From Actinomycetes bacterium (GTDB lineage Bacteria > Actinomycetota > Acidimicrobiia > Acidimicrobiales > Poriferisodalaceae), in contig JAAETH010000040.1 of assembly GCA_024228575.1 (NCBI GenBank), positions 1-42,708 of the forward strand: a stretch of DNA of 42,708 nucleotides, given 5' to 3'. Within the stretch, counting starts at the first letter, position 1. The number at the start of each line of letters is the position of its first letter. A model generated the notes under the pieces. That model was not told where the DNA came from. It saw only the letters and a list, made by a program, of their open reading frames with translations, and ran no database searches. Made by a program: the position numbers and the translations under genes. Positions 20,234 to 28,750 of this stretch are shown here, one piece after another.

Positions 20234-20313
20234 CAGGAGCAGCTCGCTGCGGTGGTTTCCGACCCCTCAACTAGTGTCGCTGTCGCCCACCGCCAGAAAG
20301 TGTGCGAGCGAAC

Positions 20314-21519
20314 ATGGAAGACCAGGCCCTAGGCAAGGAACACAACAAGTTTCGCGACTACGCGCGGAACTGGCTCGACAAGAACCGGCCACCACCACCG
20401 CCGGTGAGGCTTCCGATCTCGGCGCTCGAGATCATGACCGAAGCCCAGCGCGACTACCTCCAGGACTGGCAGGGCAAGTGTTATGAGGCGGGACTGATCG
20501 GCTGCGACTACCCCACCGACTACGGAGGGGGTGGCCACGACGGCTTCCAGCACATCGCCAACCGCGAGGCGGCCAGAGCGAACGTTCCGTTCTGGTTCAA
20601 CATCGTGGGTCTCGGGATGGCCGCGCCGACGATCCTGGTGCACGGCACAGAGGAACAGAAGCGCAAGTTCATCCCCGGCGCCCTTTCTGGCGCCGAGATC
20701 TGGTGCCAGGGTTTCAGCGAACCAGAGGCCGGTTCCGACATGGCCAACCAGCGCACCATGGCCGTCCGCGATGGCGACCAGTGGGTCGTCAACGGCCACA
20801 AGGTGTGGACCAGCCTCGGCCACTTCGCGAAGTGGATGATCCTCATCGCACGCACCTCGAGCGACCACAAATACGAGGGCCTCAGCTACTTTCTCTGCCC
20901 GATCGATGGCCACCCCGGTGTGACGGTGAGGCCGCTGGTGAAGATGACGGGCGAGTCGGGCTTCAACGAGGTGTTCTTCGACGACTCTCCTGTCCCCCAC
21001 GAGAACATGCTCGGCGGTGAGGGCAACGGTTGGGCGGTGGCGATGACGACCCTGTCGTCGGAGCGCGGCGCATCCGAGGGGGCAGGCGGCGGCGACACCA
21101 ACCCCCGAGCAGCGGTCGCACGGCTTGCCGAACTGGCACGAGATACCCTGCGCGACGGGCGGCCCGTCGCCGATGACCCGGTCGTCTGTGACGCGATCGT
21201 CCAACACGCCATCTGGGCCGAAGGACTCGTCGAGAACGCGCGACGTTCCCGGATCCCTGCCCTCAACGACCACCCGATGCGACTGGCCCTCCAGTCGAAG
21301 GTGACAGGAAGTGAGTTCCGCCAAAGCGTCGCCCGGCTCGGTGTCGAGATCGCAGGACCGATGTCGACGTTGTACAAGAACGACCCCAATGCACCCGACA
21401 AGGGCCATTGGCCGATGGCCTACATGGGTTCGTATGGTTCGACCATTGCGGCGGGCGCAAACGAGATCCAACGCAACATCCTCGGCGAGCGTGTGCTCGG
21501 CCTCCCCAAGACGAAGTGA
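20314..21519 (+). CDS. Acyl-CoA dehydrogenase (FadE type), first of a pair
   Basis: A 401-residue flavin acyl-CoA dehydrogenase. Typical segments are GLIGCDYPTDYGGGG, WCQGFSEPEAGSDMANQRT (the FAD/substrate loop), WVVNGHKVWTSLGHFAKWMI and a C-terminal block ANEIQRNILGERVLGLPK. The MCAD-type catalytic Glu before the C-terminal Gly is Ala here (IAAGANEIQ), common in actinobacterial FadE proteins that place the base elsewhere or pair with a second subunit. The second dehydrogenase starts 10 nt downstream. Start taken as ATG at 20314; GTG at 20302 is possible and neither has a strong ribosome site. Confidence 0.9.
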   Translation: MEDQALGKEHNKFRDYARNWLDKNRPPPPPVRLPISALEIMTEAQRDYLQDWQGKCYEAGLIGCDYPTDYGGGGHDGFQHIANREAARANVPFWFNIVGLGMAAPTILVHGTEEQKRKFIPGALSGAEIWCQGFSEPEAGSDMANQRTMAVRDGDQWVVNGHKVWTSLGHFAKWMILIARTSSDHKYEGLSYFLCPIDGHPGVTVRPLVKMTGESGFNEVFFDDSPVPHENMLGGEGNGWAVAMTTLSSERGASEGAGGGDTNPRAAVARLAELARDTLRDGRPVADDPVVCDAIVQHAIWAEGLVENARRSRIPALNDHPMRLALQSKVTGSEFRQSVARLGVEIAGPMSTLYKNDPNAPDKGHWPMAYMGSYGSTIAAGANEIQRNILGERVLGLPKTK

Positions 21520-21529
21520 GGGTCCGCCG

Positions 21530-22690
21530 ATGACAGATACCAACACACCCATCGCCGACTACGGCTTCGGCGAAAACGAAGCCGATCTTCGAGACGTCGC
21601 GCACCGGTTCCTCGACGATCGGTTCCCTACGACCAGATTGCGCGAGCTTGTCGCCTCCGATCACGAAGCGGTCTACGACCGGGGCGAGATGCCTGCATGG
21701 GACCCCGACATGTGGCAGCGCCTCGTCGACATGGGTTGGTCCGGACTCGCGGTTCCCGAGAGCGCCGGCGGCTCGGGCATCTCGCTGGCTGGGCTGGTCG
21801 GCCTCGTCGAAGAGGTCGCACGACATGCACTTCCGTCGCCACTCATCTCGACCTTCCAGGCATCGCTGCTGCTGGCCGCTTGCGATTCCGGTCGCGCTGG
21901 GCCATCACTCGAAGCCATCGCGAACGGATCGTCCGCAACCATCGCCGTCACCGATCGAGGCGGCAGCTGGCAGCTCGGCGACTGCGACGTGTCGGCTACC
22001 GAATCCGCTGATGGTCTTGTGCTGTCGGGTCAGGCCGGCTTCGTGCAGGACGCTGCGAAGGCCGACATGTTCGTCGTGCAGTGCACTACCGGCGAGGGTC
22101 ATGCACTAGTGGTCGTCGAGTCCGGGGCCGACGGCCTGCGCGTCGAAGGCGACCACATCCACGACCTCACACGCGACCAGGCAACCGTGCACTTCGACTC
22201 GGTCCGCGTCGACGGTTCAGCGGTGGTGTCCAACGATGGGATGGCAGCACTCGCGCAGGCTTGGCCGGCCTTGCTGAACCTCGTCACCGCCGATCTGTGC
22301 GGTACTTCGGAGTGGCTGTTGCAGACCACCGTCGACTACGCCAAGGACCGGGTGCAGTTCGACCGGCCCATCGGCTTCTTCCAGGCGGTCAAACACCCAT
22401 TGGTCGACGTCATGGTCGACATCGATCGGGCCCGCAGCCTGCTCTACGGCGCGGCCGAGGCCTTCGACATCGGATCGTCCGATGCCATCACGAAGGCGCG
22501 CATGGCCAAGAGCGCCGCGTCGGATGCGGGTTCCTATGCCGCAGATCGCTCAGTGCAGTTGCACGGCGGCATCGGGTTCACATGGGAACACGACGTCCAC
22601 ATCTATTTCAAGCGAACCATGCACAACCAGGTCCTGTACGGCGACGGCCGGTATCAGCGCCGACAACTCGCCCCCACCGTCATGGGCTAG
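21530..22690 (+). CDS. Acyl-CoA dehydrogenase (FadE type), second of a pair
   Basis: A 386-residue acyl-CoA dehydrogenase homologue more divergent than the first. It opens YGFGENEADLRDVAHRFLDD. The middle substrate domain is poorly conserved. The C-terminal half has the family's KDRVQFDRPIGFFQAVKHPL and VQLHGGIGFTWEHDVHIYFKR. Start at 21530 (ATG) with GTGAGGG upstream; the longer frame to 21311 is a shadow of the previous gene. Adjacent unequal pairs like this form alpha2beta2 enzymes with only two FAD in mycobacterial steroid side-chain degradation (FadE26-27, FadE28-29); a heteromer is likely here. Its TAG stop overlaps the stop of the convergent thiolase in a shared CTAG. Confidence 0.88.
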   Translation: MTDTNTPIADYGFGENEADLRDVAHRFLDDRFPTTRLRELVASDHEAVYDRGEMPAWDPDMWQRLVDMGWSGLAVPESAGGSGISLAGLVGLVEEVARHALPSPLISTFQASLLLAACDSGRAGPSLEAIANGSSATIAVTDRGGSWQLGDCDVSATESADGLVLSGQAGFVQDAAKADMFVVQCTTGEGHALVVVESGADGLRVEGDHIHDLTRDQATVHFDSVRVDGSAVVSNDGMAALAQAWPALLNLVTADLCGTSEWLLQTTVDYAKDRVQFDRPIGFFQAVKHPLVDVMVDIDRARSLLYGAAEAFDIGSSDAITKARMAKSAASDAGSYAADRSVQLHGGIGFTWEHDVHIYFKRTMHNQVLYGDGRYQRRQLAPTVMG

Positions 22691-23886
22691 CCCAGTTCGG
22701 AACCGACGATGGCTGCAAAGCTGACACACTCGCCGGGTCGTCCGCCCAGGTTGTGGGTCAGGCCGAGGGTCTTGCCCTTGTCGACCGACAGGATCTGGCG
22801 GTCTTCTGGCGCTTCCTTGCGCAGCTGCAACCAGCACTCGAACAACATGCGCAGGCCCGACGCACCGATCGGGTGGCCGAAACTCTTCAGGCCGCCGTCG
22901 GGGTTCACGGGCAACTCGCCGTCGAGGTCGAATGCACCTGCCATCACGTCCTGCCACCCCTCGCCACGCTCGGAGAACTGGAGGTCTTCCATGAGGACCA
23001 GCTCGGTGGGCGTGAAGCAGTCGTGCACCTCGGCCATGGCGATCTCTTCACGCGGGTTCGTGACGCCCGCCTGCTCGTAGGCATCGACGGCGCAACGAGC
23101 GACCTCGTTGAAGGTGGTGTAGTCGTAGTCGGGATCGAGCGGGCCGGCCCCCGGGCCAGACGTGAACGCCAGTGCCTTCACGAACAGCGGGTTGTCTGTG
23201 TACTTGTAGGCATCCTCGGCTCGGCACAGGATTGCGGCGGCCGACCCGTCGCTGACACCCGAGCAGTCGAAGATTCCGAGGTCGCCGGCGATGAGCGGAG
23301 CGTTGCAGATGGTCTCGACGCTGACTTCCTTCTGGAACTGAGCCCTTGGATTGCGCGCCCCGTTGTAGTGGTTCTTCCACGCGATGCGAGCCATGACGTC
23401 CTTCATGGTCTTGCGATCGACGCCGTACTTCTCGCCATAGGCCGGGGCCAACAGCGAGAACGAAGCCGGAGCCGTGATGTCGGTGTTGGTGCCGTCGTCG
23501 GGAATGTCGGCCATGATCAGGCCCGACATGCCGTTGTCCTTCAGTTTCTCGGCGCCGATGGCCATGACCACGTCGAAGGCGCCCGATGCCACCGCGTAGG
23601 CAGCGTTGCGGAAGGCCTCGGAACCCGATGCACACATGTTCTCGACTCGTGTGACCGGCTTGTAGTCGATCTTCAGAGGTTTTGAGATCGTGAGGCCCGA
23701 GACGCCGGATCCGAGCGTGCCGAACCAGAACGCGTCGACGTCGTCCTGGCTGATGTTGGCCGAGTCGTAGGCGGCGTGGGCAGCCTCGATGATCATGTCG
23801 TCGATGGAGCGGTCGAAGTGTTCACCGAACTTGGTGCACCCCATGCCGACGATGGCGACCTGGTCCTTGATTCCTCGTGATCCCAT
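22687..23886 (-). CDS. Thiolase (SCP2/acetyl-CoA acetyltransferase type)
   Basis: A 399-residue thiolase-fold enzyme. The nucleophile is Cys85 in RVENMCASGSEAF; the catalytic histidines are His288 (EVHDCFTPTE) and His338 (GGLKSFGHPIGASG). All three are present, so it should be an active acyl-CoA acyltransferase rather than one of the Cys-lacking steroid aldolases (Ltp2). AGGAGAG about 5 nt before ATG supports the start. It lies 23 nt downstream of a protein with a thiolase-fold domain fused to DUF35, an arrangement like the archaeal thiolase/DUF35/HMG-CoA synthase complex. It probably completes a beta-oxidation-like cleavage together with the convergent acyl-CoA dehydrogenases. Confidence 0.9.
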   Translation of the reverse strand: MGSRGIKDQVAIVGMGCTKFGEHFDRSIDDMIIEAAHAAYDSANISQDDVDAFWFGTLGSGVSGLTISKPLKIDYKPVTRVENMCASGSEAFRNAAYAVASGAFDVVMAIGAEKLKDNGMSGLIMADIPDDGTNTDITAPASFSLLAPAYGEKYGVDRKTMKDVMARIAWKNHYNGARNPRAQFQKEVSVETICNAPLIAGDLGIFDCSGVSDGSAAAILCRAEDAYKYTDNPLFVKALAFTSGPGAGPLDPDYDYTTFNEVARCAVDAYEQAGVTNPREEIAMAEVHDCFTPTELVLMEDLQFSERGEGWQDVMAGAFDLDGELPVNPDGGLKSFGHPIGASGLRMLFECWLQLRKEAPEDRQILSVDKGKTLGLTHNLGGRPGECVSFAAIVGSELG

Positions 23887-23909
23887 GTTGCTCTCCTATG
23901 GAAGTCGTC

Positions 23910-25319
23910 CTACCGGACAGGGGTTGCTTTCCAGAAGTAGTTGTGGACACCGCCTGCGGTCAAGACCTTGCGGAAGGTCATCCGGACGCGCAAGCCGATC
24001 TCGACCTCTTCGGGCTCGGCATCTGTGAGCTCGGAGGTGAACCGGCCGCCCCCATCGAAGTCGATGACGACGGCGACGGTCGGAGGCGACGGCGAAAAGG
24101 CCAGTCGGTCGATCGTGTACGTGGCGACGGTGGCTTCGATATCGGCCATCGGCACCATCTCCATGTCGTCGACAGCACCACCCTTCACCGACACACGCTG
24201 GGGTGGCAGGTGGACGGCGCCACTCGTTCGGTCGCGAGAGGCGATGAGGGCGAATTTCCACTCGGCGTTGCGCTCCGAGGGTGGCCCCGCAGGAGGCGTG
24301 GGATCGGGACGGCGCGGAGGTTCGCGGTCGAGATATCCACGCCAGGTGAGGAACTTCGCGTAGTCGAGGCTGTCATTGCCGTCGGCGATCTGGGCCGCAA
24401 CGGGCTGGGCCGGCTTGTAGTCGACGATGGCGTCGGTCGTGCGGAAGATGTGGATGTCGCAACCGTCGGCGAGGTTGATCAACATGATGGTCTGGTCGGG
24501 CCCGGCGTCGTCGAGCGTCCGCGCCAAGGCGACCAGTCCGTGGGAACAACCCGTGTTGCCGATCGTTGCGGTGAGGTCCTCGGCGGTCGGAACCGCAGCG
24601 ACTCCTGCGGCACCCGCCGCGCTGCGCACGGCTCTTGAATGCAGGCCGCTGATGATGACCTTGTCGATGTCGGCGGCCGAGAGTTCGTGGTCCTTGAACA
24701 CCGCGGTTGCAGCCTCGGTGACGAGGGGCCTGTAGACCGACTCGCCGAAACGTTCTTCCCAGACGCGTGAGTAGTCCCAGCCGGGTGCCCGCCATCGGTC
24801 GAGGAACTCGTGGGTGACGCTCGAGGTACCGACCAACTCGGCGATGACCGGGGCGTCGTCGTCGGTGCCGATGAACACTGCGGCACCCGCATCGCCGAGC
24901 GCCGATTCGTCGCTGCTGCCGGGCCGGCCACTACGAACATCTGCCGCTGTGACGAGGATGGGTCGGCTGTCGTTCAGCGCTGCATTGATCGCAGCGGTGG
25001 TCGAACGTGACGAGCCGACCATGTCGCCTGCGAAGACCGAAGACGGCAGATTCAGCGCCGCGTGGATTGTGTTGGCGTTTGTTTTGTCCAGATACGGCGG
25101 TGTGACAGAAGTGAAGTAGACGGCTGCAGGTGTGGGCGCCTCGAACGATTTCTGCGCAGCTCTGGCAGCTTCGACCGACATGGATGTGGCGTCCTCGTCG
25201 TAGCTGGCGACTGCCCTGGACCCCTTGCCACCGCCCGACCCAAGGGTTTGAGCGATCGCTGATCGACTGAGTCGGTAGTACGGGATGTGCACGCCATACC
25301 CGAGAATCCCTCTGCCCAC
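23910..25319 (-). CDS. HMG-CoA-synthase-like domain fused to DUF35 OB-fold (Cys-less)
   Basis: A 469-residue two-domain protein. Residues 1-335 are a thiolase-superfamily (KASIII/HMG-CoA synthase-like) domain: GRGILGYGVHIPYYRLSRS, DEDATSMSVEAARAA, ALGDAGAAVFIG and IGNTGCSHGLVALA. Residues 350-469 are a DUF35 OB-fold: HLPPQRV, VATYTIDRLAFSPSPPTVAV, FDGGGRFTSELTD and GVHNYFWKATPV. Where the catalytic Cys should be, the sequence is VGSSRSTTAA (residues 101-110), with no Cys. The usual DUF35 zinc-ribbon cysteines before HLPP are also missing. The GTG start has AGGAG 8 nt upstream; the longer frame is rejected. It likely scaffolds or channels substrate for the thiolase encoded next. Confidence 0.85.
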   Translation of the reverse strand: MGRGILGYGVHIPYYRLSRSAIAQTLGSGGGKGSRAVASYDEDATSMSVEAARAAQKSFEAPTPAAVYFTSVTPPYLDKTNANTIHAALNLPSSVFAGDMVGSSRSTTAAINAALNDSRPILVTAADVRSGRPGSSDESALGDAGAAVFIGTDDDAPVIAELVGTSSVTHEFLDRWRAPGWDYSRVWEERFGESVYRPLVTEAATAVFKDHELSAADIDKVIISGLHSRAVRSAAGAAGVAAVPTAEDLTATIGNTGCSHGLVALARTLDDAGPDQTIMLINLADGCDIHIFRTTDAIVDYKPAQPVAAQIADGNDSLDYAKFLTWRGYLDREPPRRPDPTPPAGPPSERNAEWKFALIASRDRTSGAVHLPPQRVSVKGGAVDDMEMVPMADIEATVATYTIDRLAFSPSPPTVAVVIDFDGGGRFTSELTDAEPEEVEIGLRVRMTFRKVLTAGGVHNYFWKATPVR

Positions 25320-25490
25320 GTCGTAGCTCCTGTTCGATGGTGAGTTCGTCCGGCCCCCGCCCGGTCGATCATAGTGCGAGCCGACGTGATCCGGGTCACG
25401 GCGCCCGCGCCGGAAACGTGCTTCTCTATGATCGCGATGGACGCCAGGACAGAGCAAACGTCCAAGCGATCCGCCGGAGATGCAGGAACA

Positions 25491-26456
25491 ATGAGCGAAG
25501 CAAAGACACCCATCGACCTCGATGCCCGGGTTGCCCCCGAGCTCGCCGACGTGTTGGCACAGGTACCCGAACGACAGGTCGCCGCTGAACACCTCCCGGC
25601 GATGCGCAACTTCCTCGACAGCATTGCCGAACCGGCACCCGATTCGGTGACGATCACCGATCATCACACGAGCAGCTCCGACGGGCATCGGGTACTCGTG
25701 CGGACCTATCGCCCCATCGCCGCCGCCGCTGGCGCCCTCCCATGTGTGTTTCGCATCTACGGTGGAGGGCTGATCACCGGCTCGATCACGAGCAACGATT
25801 GGACCAGTGGTTCTCTGGCCGCCGAGCTCGGTGTGGCGGTTGCCGCCGTCGAGTACCGGGTCGCACCCGAAGCCCGCTACCCCGCAGCGATCGACGACTG
25901 CCATGCCGGCTACACGTTCATCGAGAAACACGCTGACGAGCTCGAGATGGACCCCGATCGGGTCGCGATCCTGGGGGTGAGCGCAGGGGGCGGCCTGGCA
26001 GCAGCGCTCGCCTTACGTCTGCGCGATCGAGGCAACCGGCCTCCACGCCTGCTGTTGCTTCGTTACCCAATGCTCGACGATCGCAACACGACAACATCGT
26101 CGCATGCCATCACCGACAACCGCACGTGGAGTCGCGAGTTCAACCTCTTCGGCTGGAACGCGTACCTCGACGGCCGGGCAGGATCGGACGATGTCTTGGC
26201 CGATGCCGCACCCGCGAGGGCCGACGACCTGGCGGGGTTTCCCGCCACCGCCATCACCGTTGGCGGACTCGACCTGTTCCTCGACGAGAACATGACGTTT
26301 GCCCAGCGCCTCGCCGCAGCAGGAGTCGACACCGAGCTGCACGTCTACCCTGGCGCATTCCACGGGGTGCACAATGTGGCCCGCGACTCGGTCCTCGTCG
26401 GTCGGTGGCTCGATGACGAACACCGCGCCCTGCGCCGAGCGCTGTTTGCACCGTGA
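25491..26456 (+). CDS. Alpha/beta hydrolase, HSL-type (family IV) esterase
   Basis: A 321-residue hormone-sensitive-lipase-like hydrolase. The nucleophile elbow is GVSAGGG with Ser164, the acid is Asp261 (VGGLDLFLDEN) and the base is His291 (FHGVHN). The oxyanion-hole motif, normally HGGG, is YGGG here (residues 90-93). VEYRVAPEARYPAAIDDC is typical of the family. ATG at 25491 is preferred because GGAGA lies about 10 nt upstream and homologues begin near here; the frame extends to 25374. It is divergent from the HMGS-DUF35 gene and converges on the exporter. It may release an acid from an ester that then enters the neighbouring CoA pathway, but that is inference. Confidence 0.88.
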   Translation: MSEAKTPIDLDARVAPELADVLAQVPERQVAAEHLPAMRNFLDSIAEPAPDSVTITDHHTSSSDGHRVLVRTYRPIAAAAGALPCVFRIYGGGLITGSITSNDWTSGSLAAELGVAVAAVEYRVAPEARYPAAIDDCHAGYTFIEKHADELEMDPDRVAILGVSAGGGLAAALALRLRDRGNRPPRLLLLRYPMLDDRNTTTSSHAITDNRTWSREFNLFGWNAYLDGRAGSDDVLADAAPARADDLAGFPATAITVGGLDLFLDENMTFAQRLAAAGVDTELHVYPGAFHGVHNVARDSVLVGRWLDDEHRALRRALFAP

Positions 26457-26470
26457 CCGCCCAATGAGTT

Positions 26471-28750
26471 TCAGTTGTGATCGACCGAACCCTCGACGTT
26501 GAGGGTGGGCAAGATACGGTCGAGCCACTTGGGCAGCCACCAGTTCTTCTCGCCGAGCAGCTCCATGGTGGCGGGCACCAACAACATGCGGACCAGGGTG
26601 GCGTCGATGATGACGGCAAGGGCCAGGCCGGTGCCGAACAGCTTGACGACACGATCGTCCTCGAGCAGGAAAGACCCGAACACAACCGCCATGATGGCCG
26701 CTGCTGCGGTGATGACCCGGGCGGTGACCGACAAGCCGTCGGCGACCGACAGCCGCGCATCGCCGGTGCGGTCGAACTCTTCTCGAATACGGCTGAGCAG
26801 GAACACCTCATAGTCCATGGACAGGCCGAACACGATGGCGAACAACATCATCGGTACAAACGGCTCGATCGGTGCTGGCTCGATTCCCGTGATCCCACCG
26901 AACCATCCCTCCTGGAAGACCAACACGACCACACCGTAGGAAGCCGAGATGGACAAGACGTTCATCACCACGGCCTTCAGGGGCACGAGGACCGAACGGA
27001 ACACAGCCATCAGGAGCAGGAACGACACGCTCAGAACCGCGCCGAAGAAGATCGGGATGCGGCCACTCAGATAGGTCGAGAAGTCGATGTTTGCGGGTAC
27101 CGATCCGGTGATGTTCGCTTCGACCCCGGTTCCTTCGACGGCGTCGGCGACGTCGGAACGCAATCGCTTGACCGTGTCGAAGGTGGCGGTGTCCTGTGGA
27201 GAATCGGTGGCGATGATCTGGATCAGGAAGGCGTCGGAAGCCGGAGGATTTTCGCGGTTGCTTGGGAACGGCTGCCCGACCGAGGCGACACCCGGATCGG
27301 CGTCGACGAGAGCCGCCAGCTGCTGCACGGTCGCAACGTCCTCTGGGCCATCGACCTCGGCTACGAGCAGGAACGGACCGTTGAACCCCGGACCAAAACC
27401 GTCGGCGACCAGGTCGTAGGCCTGCCTGGTCGTCGTCTCCTCCGAATAGTTGCCCTCGTCGCTGAATCCCAGCTCGAGACCAAGAATCGGAACCGAGAGA
27501 AGGACCAGCAGCAGGGTTCCACCGATCGCGTACACCCACGGCCGACCCTGGATCTGTCGGCTCCACCGGTAGAACGCGGTCTCACGGATGGGCTTCTCGG
27601 CCCGGTGGGGGACGTTTCGTTTGAGGGATCCGACGAAGAGCCCGACCACCAACGTGAGAAGCCCGAGAGCGACGAACACCAGACCGGGCGCCAGGAGGTC
27701 AAGGCCGATCAGCGCAACACCCACCGCGACGAACCCCGCGGAGATGAGACCACGCCAACGTGTGATCTCGACCCGCGAGCCGACGATGGCCAGCAGGGCT
27801 GGAAGAAGTGTCAACGAGGCAAACATCGTGAAAGCCACCGTGACAGCGGCCGCGATGCCAAGACCGGAAACAAAGGCCAACCCGATGGTCAACATCCCGA
27901 GCAACGAGAGCACAACGGTGATACCTGCAAAAGCCACAGCGCGGCCCGCCGTGTCCATGGCAGAGACGATTGCTTCTCGCTGCGGCACACCCTGGCGAGC
28001 CAGTTCGCGGTACCGGGTGACGATGAATAGGGCGTAGTCGATGCCCGCACCGATGCCGATCATGAGCCCAATCGAGGTGGCGAACTCGGGGATTCCCATG
28101 ACGTGGGTCAGCAGGTTCAACGCACCGATACCGCCGACGCCGACTCCGACGAGAGCCACACTGATCGGCAGACCCATGGCCAACACCGAGCCGAACGAAA
28201 CGATCAGGATGACGATGGCAAACCCGATGCCGATCAGCTCGGACTCCGGCGGTTCGAATTCTGCCAGCGCCTCGCCGCCGATCTCGACGCGAAGCCCCTC
28301 GATATCGGGTATCTCGTCTCGAATCACCCTGCCGATCTCGGCTGCCGTGTTCCGGTCGACCTCCGGCTCGAGGTTGACCTGGGCGAATGCGATGGTCCCA
28401 TCCCGAGAGATCTGTGCCCGACCGAAGTCGGAGTAGGGGCTGACGATGCTCGTCTGTTCGAGCCCGGCGGCGGTCTCGAACACCTCTGTCATGGCTTCGA
28501 CGATGACCGGGTCGTTCACATCGTCGGCCTGGAACACGATCGATCCGCCGAATGCGGTGCCCGCCCCGGGGAAGTGTTCGTCCAGAGCCTCGAATCCGCG
28601 GGCGGCCTCCGATGCCGGAATGTCGAAGCTGGTATCGAATTCGGGCCCAATCACTCCCGCGACCCCGTTGAGCCCGACCAGGGTGATGAGCCACCCGAGC
28701 ACAACAACCCATCGGTGGTCGGCACACCACCCTGCGATCTTTCGATACAT
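26471..28750 (-). CDS. MMPL/RND-family exporter
   Basis: A 759-residue membrane exporter with the duplicated RND/MmpL plan: one helix, a periplasmic-type loop, a helix bundle, then a repeat of the same. Signature segments are GIGAGIDYALFIVTRYREL near residue 235 and FGLSMDYEVFLLSRIREE near residue 640, with the Asp-Tyr pairs used for proton coupling. MmpL proteins export lipids, siderophores or drugs. A divergent TetR gene lies 206 bp away, and a perfect inverted repeat sits 21 nt upstream of this ATG, so drug- or lipid-responsive repression is likely. It converges on the esterase gene. Substrate unknown. Confidence 0.92.
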   Translation of the reverse strand: MYRKIAGWCADHRWVVVLGWLITLVGLNGVAGVIGPEFDTSFDIPASEAARGFEALDEHFPGAGTAFGGSIVFQADDVNDPVIVEAMTEVFETAAGLEQTSIVSPYSDFGRAQISRDGTIAFAQVNLEPEVDRNTAAEIGRVIRDEIPDIEGLRVEIGGEALAEFEPPESELIGIGFAIVILIVSFGSVLAMGLPISVALVGVGVGGIGALNLLTHVMGIPEFATSIGLMIGIGAGIDYALFIVTRYRELARQGVPQREAIVSAMDTAGRAVAFAGITVVLSLLGMLTIGLAFVSGLGIAAAVTVAFTMFASLTLLPALLAIVGSRVEITRWRGLISAGFVAVGVALIGLDLLAPGLVFVALGLLTLVVGLFVGSLKRNVPHRAEKPIRETAFYRWSRQIQGRPWVYAIGGTLLLVLLSVPILGLELGFSDEGNYSEETTTRQAYDLVADGFGPGFNGPFLLVAEVDGPEDVATVQQLAALVDADPGVASVGQPFPSNRENPPASDAFLIQIIATDSPQDTATFDTVKRLRSDVADAVEGTGVEANITGSVPANIDFSTYLSGRIPIFFGAVLSVSFLLLMAVFRSVLVPLKAVVMNVLSISASYGVVVLVFQEGWFGGITGIEPAPIEPFVPMMLFAIVFGLSMDYEVFLLSRIREEFDRTGDARLSVADGLSVTARVITAAAAIMAVVFGSFLLEDDRVVKLFGTGLALAVIIDATLVRMLLVPATMELLGEKNWWLPKWLDRILPTLNVEGSVDHN

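Follow-up and report, generated by a model that had tools for sequence, protein, structure and literature searches.

The window analysed here is a 42,708-nucleotide stretch of DNA (contig JAAETH010000040.1 of assembly GCA_024228575.1) from an Actinomycetes bacterium of the class Acidimicrobiia. It carries two adjacent genes, one encoding a 3-hydroxy-3-methylglutaryl-coenzyme A (HMG-CoA) synthase (HMGS)-like domain fused to a DUF35 domain, hereafter the fusion, and the other encoding a thiolase. Their two products probably assemble into a single thiolase complex, in which an active thiolase is accompanied by the non-catalytic fusion. This reading is based on the HMGS half, the thiolase and the DUF35 domain all matching a single solved archaeal complex (6ESQ), and on the family-wide loss of the HMGS active site alongside an intact thiolase site and a near-obligate adjacency of the two genes. 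The principle of a non-catalytic HMGS-like chain in a thiolase/DUF35 complex is already in print. New here are the fusion in cis, the later loss of zinc ligands, the spread over Actinobacteria, Proteobacteria and haloarchaea, and the mostly catabolic setting.

Loss of the HMGS active site and of the zinc ribbon

The HMGS-like half of the fusion matches the HMG-CoA synthase family NF003274 (residues 4-331, E value 2.1e-45) with 155.2 bits and does not reach the cut-off of 244. The TIGR00748 (HMG-CoA synthase) score of the fusion, 111.3 bits, is likewise below the cut-off of 353.35. As described in the excerpted text of PMC6392133, the archaeal HMGS of 6ESQ (Methanothermococcus) is active and its Cys114 and Glu82 are catalytic. 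Both residues are missing from the window, where Cys114 of 6ESQ chain I aligns with Ser104 (motif GSSRS) and Glu82 aligns with Val72. An earlier note on this stretch, made from its letters without database searches, had already described the fusion as lacking the catalytic Cys, and that description is borne out. The residue that we take to be the catalytic His of the 6ESQ HMGS aligns with Ser224.

The loss of the HMGS active site is family-wide. It was followed in 133 non-redundant fusions, a set from which matches starting after residue 20 or ending before residue 440 had been dropped (the split-frame locus L073 among them). The Cys column holds Val in 40 fusions, Ala in 31, Pro in 22, Leu in 12, Ile and Thr in 8 each, Gln in 5, Ser in 4, and His and Gly in 1 each, with one gap and no Cys. 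The Glu column is never Glu and the His column is never His; Cys is found once in the former and four times in the latter, and all three columns mostly hold small or hydrophobic residues. Of the Cys-to-Ser change whose universality had been in question, the loss of Cys is universal whereas the gain of Ser is not. Since the column is mostly Val, Ala or Pro, Ser104 appears to be incidental in the window fusion and there is no conserved substitute nucleophile. Ser104 was rejected as a replacement nucleophile on the same count of 4 in 133. Despite the lost neighbouring Cys, Arg105 is retained in all 53 main-clade fusions and in 125 of the 133, and His227, also near the old site, is conserved in 50 of the 53. 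The conservation of Arg105 points to a possible reuse of the old HMGS pocket.

An HMG-CoA synthase of the mevalonate pathway was also considered and rejected: the catalytic residues are lost, the family cut-offs are missed and HMG-CoA reductase has no match. This last point refers to the window's own genome (96.9% complete), in which no HMG-CoA reductase match was found and dxs is present, making a mevalonate role unlikely.

The C-terminal part of the fusion reaches the PF01796 cut-off (50.6 bits, cut-off 27.1) and matches 6ESQ chain E with an E value of 0.0004, the sole solved-structure match of this part in the sequence search. The DUF35 assignment is made from these Pfam and sequence matches, the fold search of the fusion having listed no DUF35 chains because the HMGS domain fills the list. 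In 6ESQ the DUF35 protein is a separate chain with zinc cysteines, whereas in the window it is fused to the HMGS half and the cysteines are gone, as the earlier note had also recognised. The first three zinc Cys of chain E align with D363, S366 and S377, and the fourth corresponds to G380 in the family alignment. All four zinc Cys are retained in 30 of the 133 fusions, three in 1, one in 2 and none in 100; the fusion counted with three (L158) shows all four in a full-gene alignment.

The order of these losses can be read from a quick tree of 87 representatives at the 80% identity level, built with the zinc columns included. In this tree, the 56 zinc-less fusions, that of the window among them, form one group (Shimodaira-Hasegawa-like approximate likelihood ratio test support 94, one change) nested among zinc-bearing relatives that are equally Cys-less. 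This placement suggests that the HMGS Cys was lost before the zinc ribbon decayed. A two-state count requires two changes: the plasmid copies L162 and L163 each keep one zinc Cys, and their decay is separate from that of the main zinc-less group, so that the ribbon would have decayed at least twice. The tree has long end branches (L066, L158 and L065), and 29 of its 84 inner branches are open. More broadly, in this family the death of the enzyme, the joining of the domains and the subsequent decay of the zinc ribbon can be put in sequence by phylogeny.

The thiolase partner and its pairing with the fusion

The thiolase of the window reaches the cut-off of NF004810 (PRK06157) with 582.5 bits (cut-off 403), while its score of 142.3 bits for NF053628 (BbsB, benzoylsuccinyl-CoA thiolase) does not reach the cut-off of 750. 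Cys85, His288 (HDCF motif) and His338 (GHP motif) are invariant in all 34 aligned relatives, in agreement with the full Cys-His-His set that had been described for this protein. Across 78 loci among the best 80 of 579, the nucleophile column is Cys in 76 and unreadable in 2, and each catalytic His is present in 74 and unreadable in 4. The set is likewise intact in the thiolases of all 16 opened plasmid pairs, each of which has HDCF. Judged from its residues, the catalytic site is intact and the protein is apparently a working enzyme.

Co-occurrence of fusion homologues with this thiolase, which the earlier note had made a test of its proposal, is near-obligate. In a class-level sample of 198 genomes, with scoring limited to the first 8-9 candidates at most in each genome, a thiolase lies downstream on the same strand within 1.5 kb for 72 of 75 fusion places, and the fusion lies upstream for 72 of 77 thiolase places (E <= 1e-100). 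The 75 fusion places were hand-picked at >=34% identity, leaving out two second pieces of split genes, matches at <=32% identity and DUF35-only matches. The gap from fusion to thiolase has a median of 34 bases and a maximum of 915 in the 72 pairs. Among the best 80 of 579 loci, the thiolase is found within 1.2 kb of the fusion in 78. The distant fusions L065-L072, inspected with longer flanks, are also Cys-less and each adjoins a thiolase. The fusion is matched by 46 plasmid records, and the pair is present in all 16 that were opened; in the haloarchaeal plasmids L168-L171 the gene order is reversed and overlapping, with the thiolase first. Overall, the pair is shared by Actinobacteria, Proteobacteria and haloarchaea. 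The pairwise distances among fusions closely track those among their thiolases (Mantel r 0.956 for n=87, a value reached in 0 of 999 permutations), which indicates joint inheritance, not contact.

The predicted folds also agree with a thiolase complex. The AlphaFold2 model of the fusion has a predicted local distance difference test score (pLDDT) of 89.0 and a predicted template modelling score of 0.91, and its ten best Foldseek chains all belong to 6ESQ/6ET9, Phl-type structures (9SKH, 5M3K, 5MG5) or MucABC. In VIA-align, the HMGS half is aligned to 6esq_I over 329 residues with a Z score of 41.5 and a root-mean-square deviation of 2.3. The thiolase model (pLDDT 87.7) is aligned to 6esq_A over 374 residues with Z 54.4, a root-mean-square deviation of 2.0 and 35% identity. 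Lower values are obtained with PhlC (Z 50.8), 6ok1 (45.9), 9myr (44.6) and ordinary biosynthetic thiolases (~38). Among solved structures, 6ESQ is therefore the top match for the HMGS half and the top or tied-top match for the thiolase.

Two stretches of the fusion may mark the contact surface. Residues 171-180 have a mean majority fraction of 0.86 at pLDDT 59 and residues 331-340 a mean of 0.85 at pLDDT 68, as compared with 0.65 in the well-ordered core blocks; residues 181-190 are about at core level (0.69, pLDDT 63). As the 171-180 and 331-340 stretches exceed the core in conservation but are placed with low confidence when the chain is modelled alone, they are likely parts of a buried interface.

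Known complexes, proposed mechanism and rival readings

The archaeal thiolase/HMGS/DUF35 complex 6ESQ is made of the same three parts as the window pair. In the PhlACB complex (5M3K, 5MG5), PhlA is an HMGS-like protein that, like the fusion, is without the key Cys and Glu. PhlA sits in a complex with PhlB (DUF35) and PhlC (thiolase) in which only PhlC residues are catalytic (PMC6392133, excerpt). The excerpts also describe PhlACB as separate chains carrying out biosynthetic acyl transfer without added CoA, whereas the HMGS-like and DUF35 parts in the window are fused, and PhlA shares only ~25% identity with the fusion. MucABC (9VBO, 9VBT) has an HMGS-like chain with Glu at the Cys column (9VBO) and a thiolase-like partner, resembling the window pair, and consists of separate chains, unlike the fusion. 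It comes from a reutericyclin/mutanocyclin biosynthetic cluster, according to an excerpt of PMC9112991. By likeness to the Phl machinery, the third MucABC chain would be a DUF35 protein. The structural half-complex serving an active thiolase that the earlier note had suggested is therefore supported by the pairing, the HMGS residue loss and the 6ESQ matches, but it is not a new principle, since PhlA and MucABC are known.

BbsAB (7PXP) is a catabolic thiolase of the same fold group as the window thiolase (Z 53.5). To our knowledge, it is without an HMGS-like part. Its DUF35 subunit is TaBbsA, as given in the part of PMC12329534 consulted. An excerpt of a 2010 paper (PMC2954200) reports a DUF35 protein encoded with active and inactive thiolase-superfamily members in phlABC, as well as DUF35 domains fused to thiolase-superfamily proteins. 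No description of the fusion as a partner of the thiolase was found in the open-access literature, outside which most subscription journals lie.

We infer a physical complex of the following kind. Cys85 of the thiolase would take the acyl group from a 3-ketoacyl-CoA, with His338 and His288 acting as in SCP2-type and archaeal thiolases, and CoA would release the shortened acyl-CoA together with acetyl- or propionyl-CoA. The HMGS-like domain, having lost Glu, Cys and His, may, like PhlA, form a dimeric scaffold closing one flank of a cavity shared by CoA and substrate. The DUF35 domain, fused in cis and thus present at 1:1, would bridge to the thiolase and hold CoA. The reaction would probably run in the catabolic direction, the pair serving routes akin to beta-oxidation in which the acyl-CoAs are bulky or branched; in other hosts it may act within estrogen-type clusters and aromatic dioxygenase operons. 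A bolder extension, which we consider tentative and rather doubtful, is that a whole class of catabolic thiolases, bacterial and haloarchaeal, comes with an obligate built-in pseudoenzyme, whose reworked HMGS pocket (Arg105 and, in the main clade, His227) forms a second acyl-CoA site selecting bulky substrates.

Several observations weigh against a dedicated thiolase complex of the 6ESQ type. In the sequence search the thiolase matches 6esq_A (198.0 bits) and the Sulfolobus protein 4yzo_A (197.5 bits) equally, and by fold BbsB (7pxp) is tied with 6esq_A. Fusion residues 341-350 (0.61) are no more conserved than the core, and the low-confidence blocks of the thiolase are mixed (0.58-0.85, core 0.80). 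The partner is absent for 3 of the 75 fusions and 5 of the 77 thiolases. Several of these places are truncated matches or start at the edge of a contig, which is not obviously the case for the thiolases G193:C148 and G230:C74 and the fusion G083:C32. The thiolases of L091 and L099 lie farther off, ~2.3 and ~2.2 kb downstream of the fusion. The only other genome of the same genus (G001, 77% complete) gave no fusion match. Housekeeping genes surround the pair in many marine Acidimicrobiia, where a core role is conceivable. Finally, adjacency and co-variation are also expected from shared descent.

This last point leads to the reading that the pair is merely co-inherited, the fusion being a free-standing acyl-CoA carrier or regulator to which the thiolase does not bind. 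Gene neighbourhood can indeed reflect a pathway instead of a complex. The two-gene cassette is retained in bacteria and haloarchaea while other neighbours change, even with reversed order, and all three parts match one solved complex, so that we give this reading little weight. Slightly more probable, and still unlikely, is a C-acyltransferase or de-acylase of the Friedel-Crafts type, like PhlACB and MucABC, in which the thiolase Cys would load an acyl group onto a ring carbon, or take one off it, instead of passing it to CoA. The nearest solved Cys-less HMGS-like proteins are PhlA, the acyltransferase chain of 9SKH and the MucABC HMGS-like chain. Aromatic ring-hydroxylating dioxygenase genes also lie within ~2.6 kb upstream of the fusion in 4 of the 16 opened plasmid clusters (L155, L160, L161 and L163). 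On the other hand, the thiolase fold is closer to 6ESQ and to the benzoylsuccinyl-CoA thiolase than to PhlC, and most opened contexts are beta-oxidation-like. Moreover, two relatives of that dioxygenase have no fusion listed nearby (L167, 73% identical, and L166, 55%), and neither is among the 46 matching plasmid records.

The pair might instead be a retro-aldolase like Ltp2 or Sal, whose usual partner is DUF35: superfamily and type of DUF35 partner are shared with the window pair, and 6ok1 and 9myr are among the fold matches. The excerpt of PMC12329534 gives the Sal aldolase motif as YDCY, with an essential Cys304, where the window thiolase has HDCF. The nucleophile Cys and HDCF are retained in all readable thiolase relatives checked, and YD-type Cys-less proteins, each beside a stand-alone DUF35, exist separately in the window's own genome, in the Novosphingobium sp. 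ES2-1 operon described below and on plasmid pIBU218. The retro-aldolase is thus highly improbable, and the new aldolase-like system offered as the other possibility in the earlier note is disfavoured with it. We hold it just as improbable that the fusion itself is a synthase or thiolase using another nucleophile, such as Ser104 or the cysteine of GNTGC. Ibero et al. suggested some other activity, e.g., thiolase, for an HMGS-like protein of the estradiol edc cluster (PMC7793797, excerpt), R105 and H227 are conserved near the old site in the main clade, and Cys does occur in the His and Glu columns. Against this, the catalytic columns are mostly small or hydrophobic, position 104 is rarely Ser, and the GNTGC cysteine is mostly replaced in relatives. 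A two-chain thiolase complex with a non-catalytic fusion partner is therefore preferred.

Genomic setting and locus layout

No single conserved pathway context was found for the pair when one was looked for, and the neighbours outside the pair differ between lineages. On plasmids, the pair is surrounded by genes for ligases, acyl-CoA dehydrogenases, hydratases, short-chain dehydrogenases/reductases (SDRs) and CoA-transferases. One haloarchaeal plasmid pair (among L168-L171) lies near benzoate-CoA ligase and UbiD genes. In 92 loci, many of them from marine Acidimicrobiia, which include some genome regions twice and whose neighbours were named by sequence recognition without a family scan, an Nfu-like gene is seen in 41, dxs in 23 and methylmalonyl-CoA mutase in 19. 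A conserved layout (e.g., L098, L112, L120 and L126) places the Nfu-like gene immediately upstream, the mutase ~6 kb upstream and, on the opposite strand, dxs downstream.

In Novosphingobium sp. ES2-1 the gene order is acyl-CoA dehydrogenase, SDR, fusion, thiolase, two hydratases and a small hypothetical gene, followed by a lipid-transfer protein, an OB-fold gene and a P450, with indolepyruvate ferredoxin oxidoreductase and VOC genes nearby. This order matches the published edc operon A of estradiol degradation, on the assumption that the small hypothetical gene is part of the in-frame fusion described at EGO55_13540. In Novosphingobium (Caenibius) tardaugens, EGO55_13555 is an 'HMG-CoA synthase' without an assignable step in estradiol breakdown (excerpt of PMC7793797). 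It adjoins an acetyl-CoA acyltransferase in the estrogen operon, much as the window fusion stands beside its thiolase, and by gene order EGO55_13555 is a candidate orthologue of the fusion. The pair may therefore account for the HMGS-like gene left unassigned in the estrogen (edc) cluster, which is a further new point. If this is true, the orphan 'HMG-CoA synthase' of estrogen-degradation clusters would be a thiolase subunit, and the puzzle that the excerpt of Ibero et al. (PMC7793797) describes becomes testable. The same ES2-1 operon encodes a YDAF-type lipid-transfer protein that, by eye, is without the Cys, together with a stand-alone DUF35 whose cysteines come in pairs, an aldolase-type arrangement that underlines the contrast with the fusion pair.

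A second DUF35 system is present in the window's own genome (L001 1450-3143, contig C618), where a stand-alone DUF35 of 139 residues with Cys pairs adjoins a thiolase-like protein with YDSF and no nucleophile Cys (by eye), i.e., of aldolase type. The ibuprofen ipfDE system was weighed as a directly linked system and rejected as such. The reason for considering it was that the pIBU218 dioxygenase and the one next to the R. qingshengii pair share 42.9% identity, but the thiolase-like protein by the pIBU218 OB-fold gene has YDAF with no Cys at the nucleophile place (by eye). Since the pIBU218 protein looks aldolase-type, the ipfDE link is only an analogy. Relatives nearer to the R. qingshengii dioxygenase than that of pIBU218 also occur without the fusion (L166 and L167).

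Public names of the fusion include 'hydroxymethylglutaryl-CoA synthase', '3-oxoacyl-ACP synthase III C-terminal domain protein', 'OB-fold protein' and hypothetical. Some of these very probably imply a reaction that the fusion cannot do. If the fusion is a non-catalytic thiolase chain, pathway annotation would be corrected in actinobacterial, proteobacterial and haloarchaeal genomes.

Features of the fusion-thiolase locus and its immediate neighbours (positions in the window)
Feature	Position	Strand	Remarks
Fusion gene, HMGS-like pseudoenzyme + DUF35	23910..25319	(-)	469 aa; GTG start, TAG stop
HMGS-like thiolase-fold domain, residues 4-331	24327..25310	(-)	NF003274 match and fold alignment to 6esq_I
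Ser104	25008..25010	(-)	place of archaeal HMGS catalytic Cys114; alignment to 6ESQ chain I
Arg105	25005-25007	(-)	beside lost Cys position
Fusion residues 171-190 (EFLDRWRAPG WDYSRVWEER)	24750..24809	(-)	low-confidence conserved loop; candidate partner/CoA interface
Degenerate zinc ribbon (D363, S366, S377, G380)	24180..24233	(-)	places of the four zinc Cys
DUF35 OB-fold domain (PF01796 OB_ChsH2_C), residues 389-450	23970..24155	(-)	Pfam match
Thiolase gene	22687..23886	(-)	399 aa; ATG start; NCBIfam NF004810/PRK06157
Thiolase Cys85 (ENMC)	23632..23634	(-)	nucleophile; invariant in 34/34 aligned relatives
Thiolase His288 (HDCF)	23023..23025	(-)	invariant in 34/34 aligned relatives
Thiolase His338 (GHP)	22873..22875	(-)	invariant in 34/34 aligned relatives
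Two adjacent acyl-CoA dehydrogenase genes	20302-22690	(+)	converge on the thiolase; ~4-base overlap with its stop
Abhydrolase_3-type hydrolase	25374-26456	(+)	just upstream of the fusion
MMPL-family transporter	26471-28750	(-)	just upstream of the fusion

The gene pair had been placed correctly in the earlier note. The fusion and the downstream thiolase are both on the minus strand and separated by 23 bp, and AGGAG sites precede the respective starts at 23893-23897 (thiolase) and 25327-25331 (fusion). Relatives of the first acyl-CoA dehydrogenase of the window are found directly 3' of the thiolase in L056 and L057, and an MMPL gene is likewise ~10 kb away from the pair of Azoarcus sp. KH32C.

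As for distribution, the search for relatives covered 41 genomes, including the one that holds the window, and 8 of them gave no fusion match, G001 being one of the 8. No fusion relative was found in viral contigs, in a scan detecting close relatives only, or in phage records. No HMGS-DUF35-thiolase triple fusion free of stops came to notice, though none was systematically searched for. Split-frame copies of the fusion are seen at L073 (G164:C1:1340000-1356000) and at G164:C1:2936355-2937757, and represent broken genes or sequencing errors. L122 and L130, from records titled as Bifidobacterium breve metagenome-assembled genomes, carry fusions 53-54% identical to that of the window, and the titles are judged to belong to misnamed bins.

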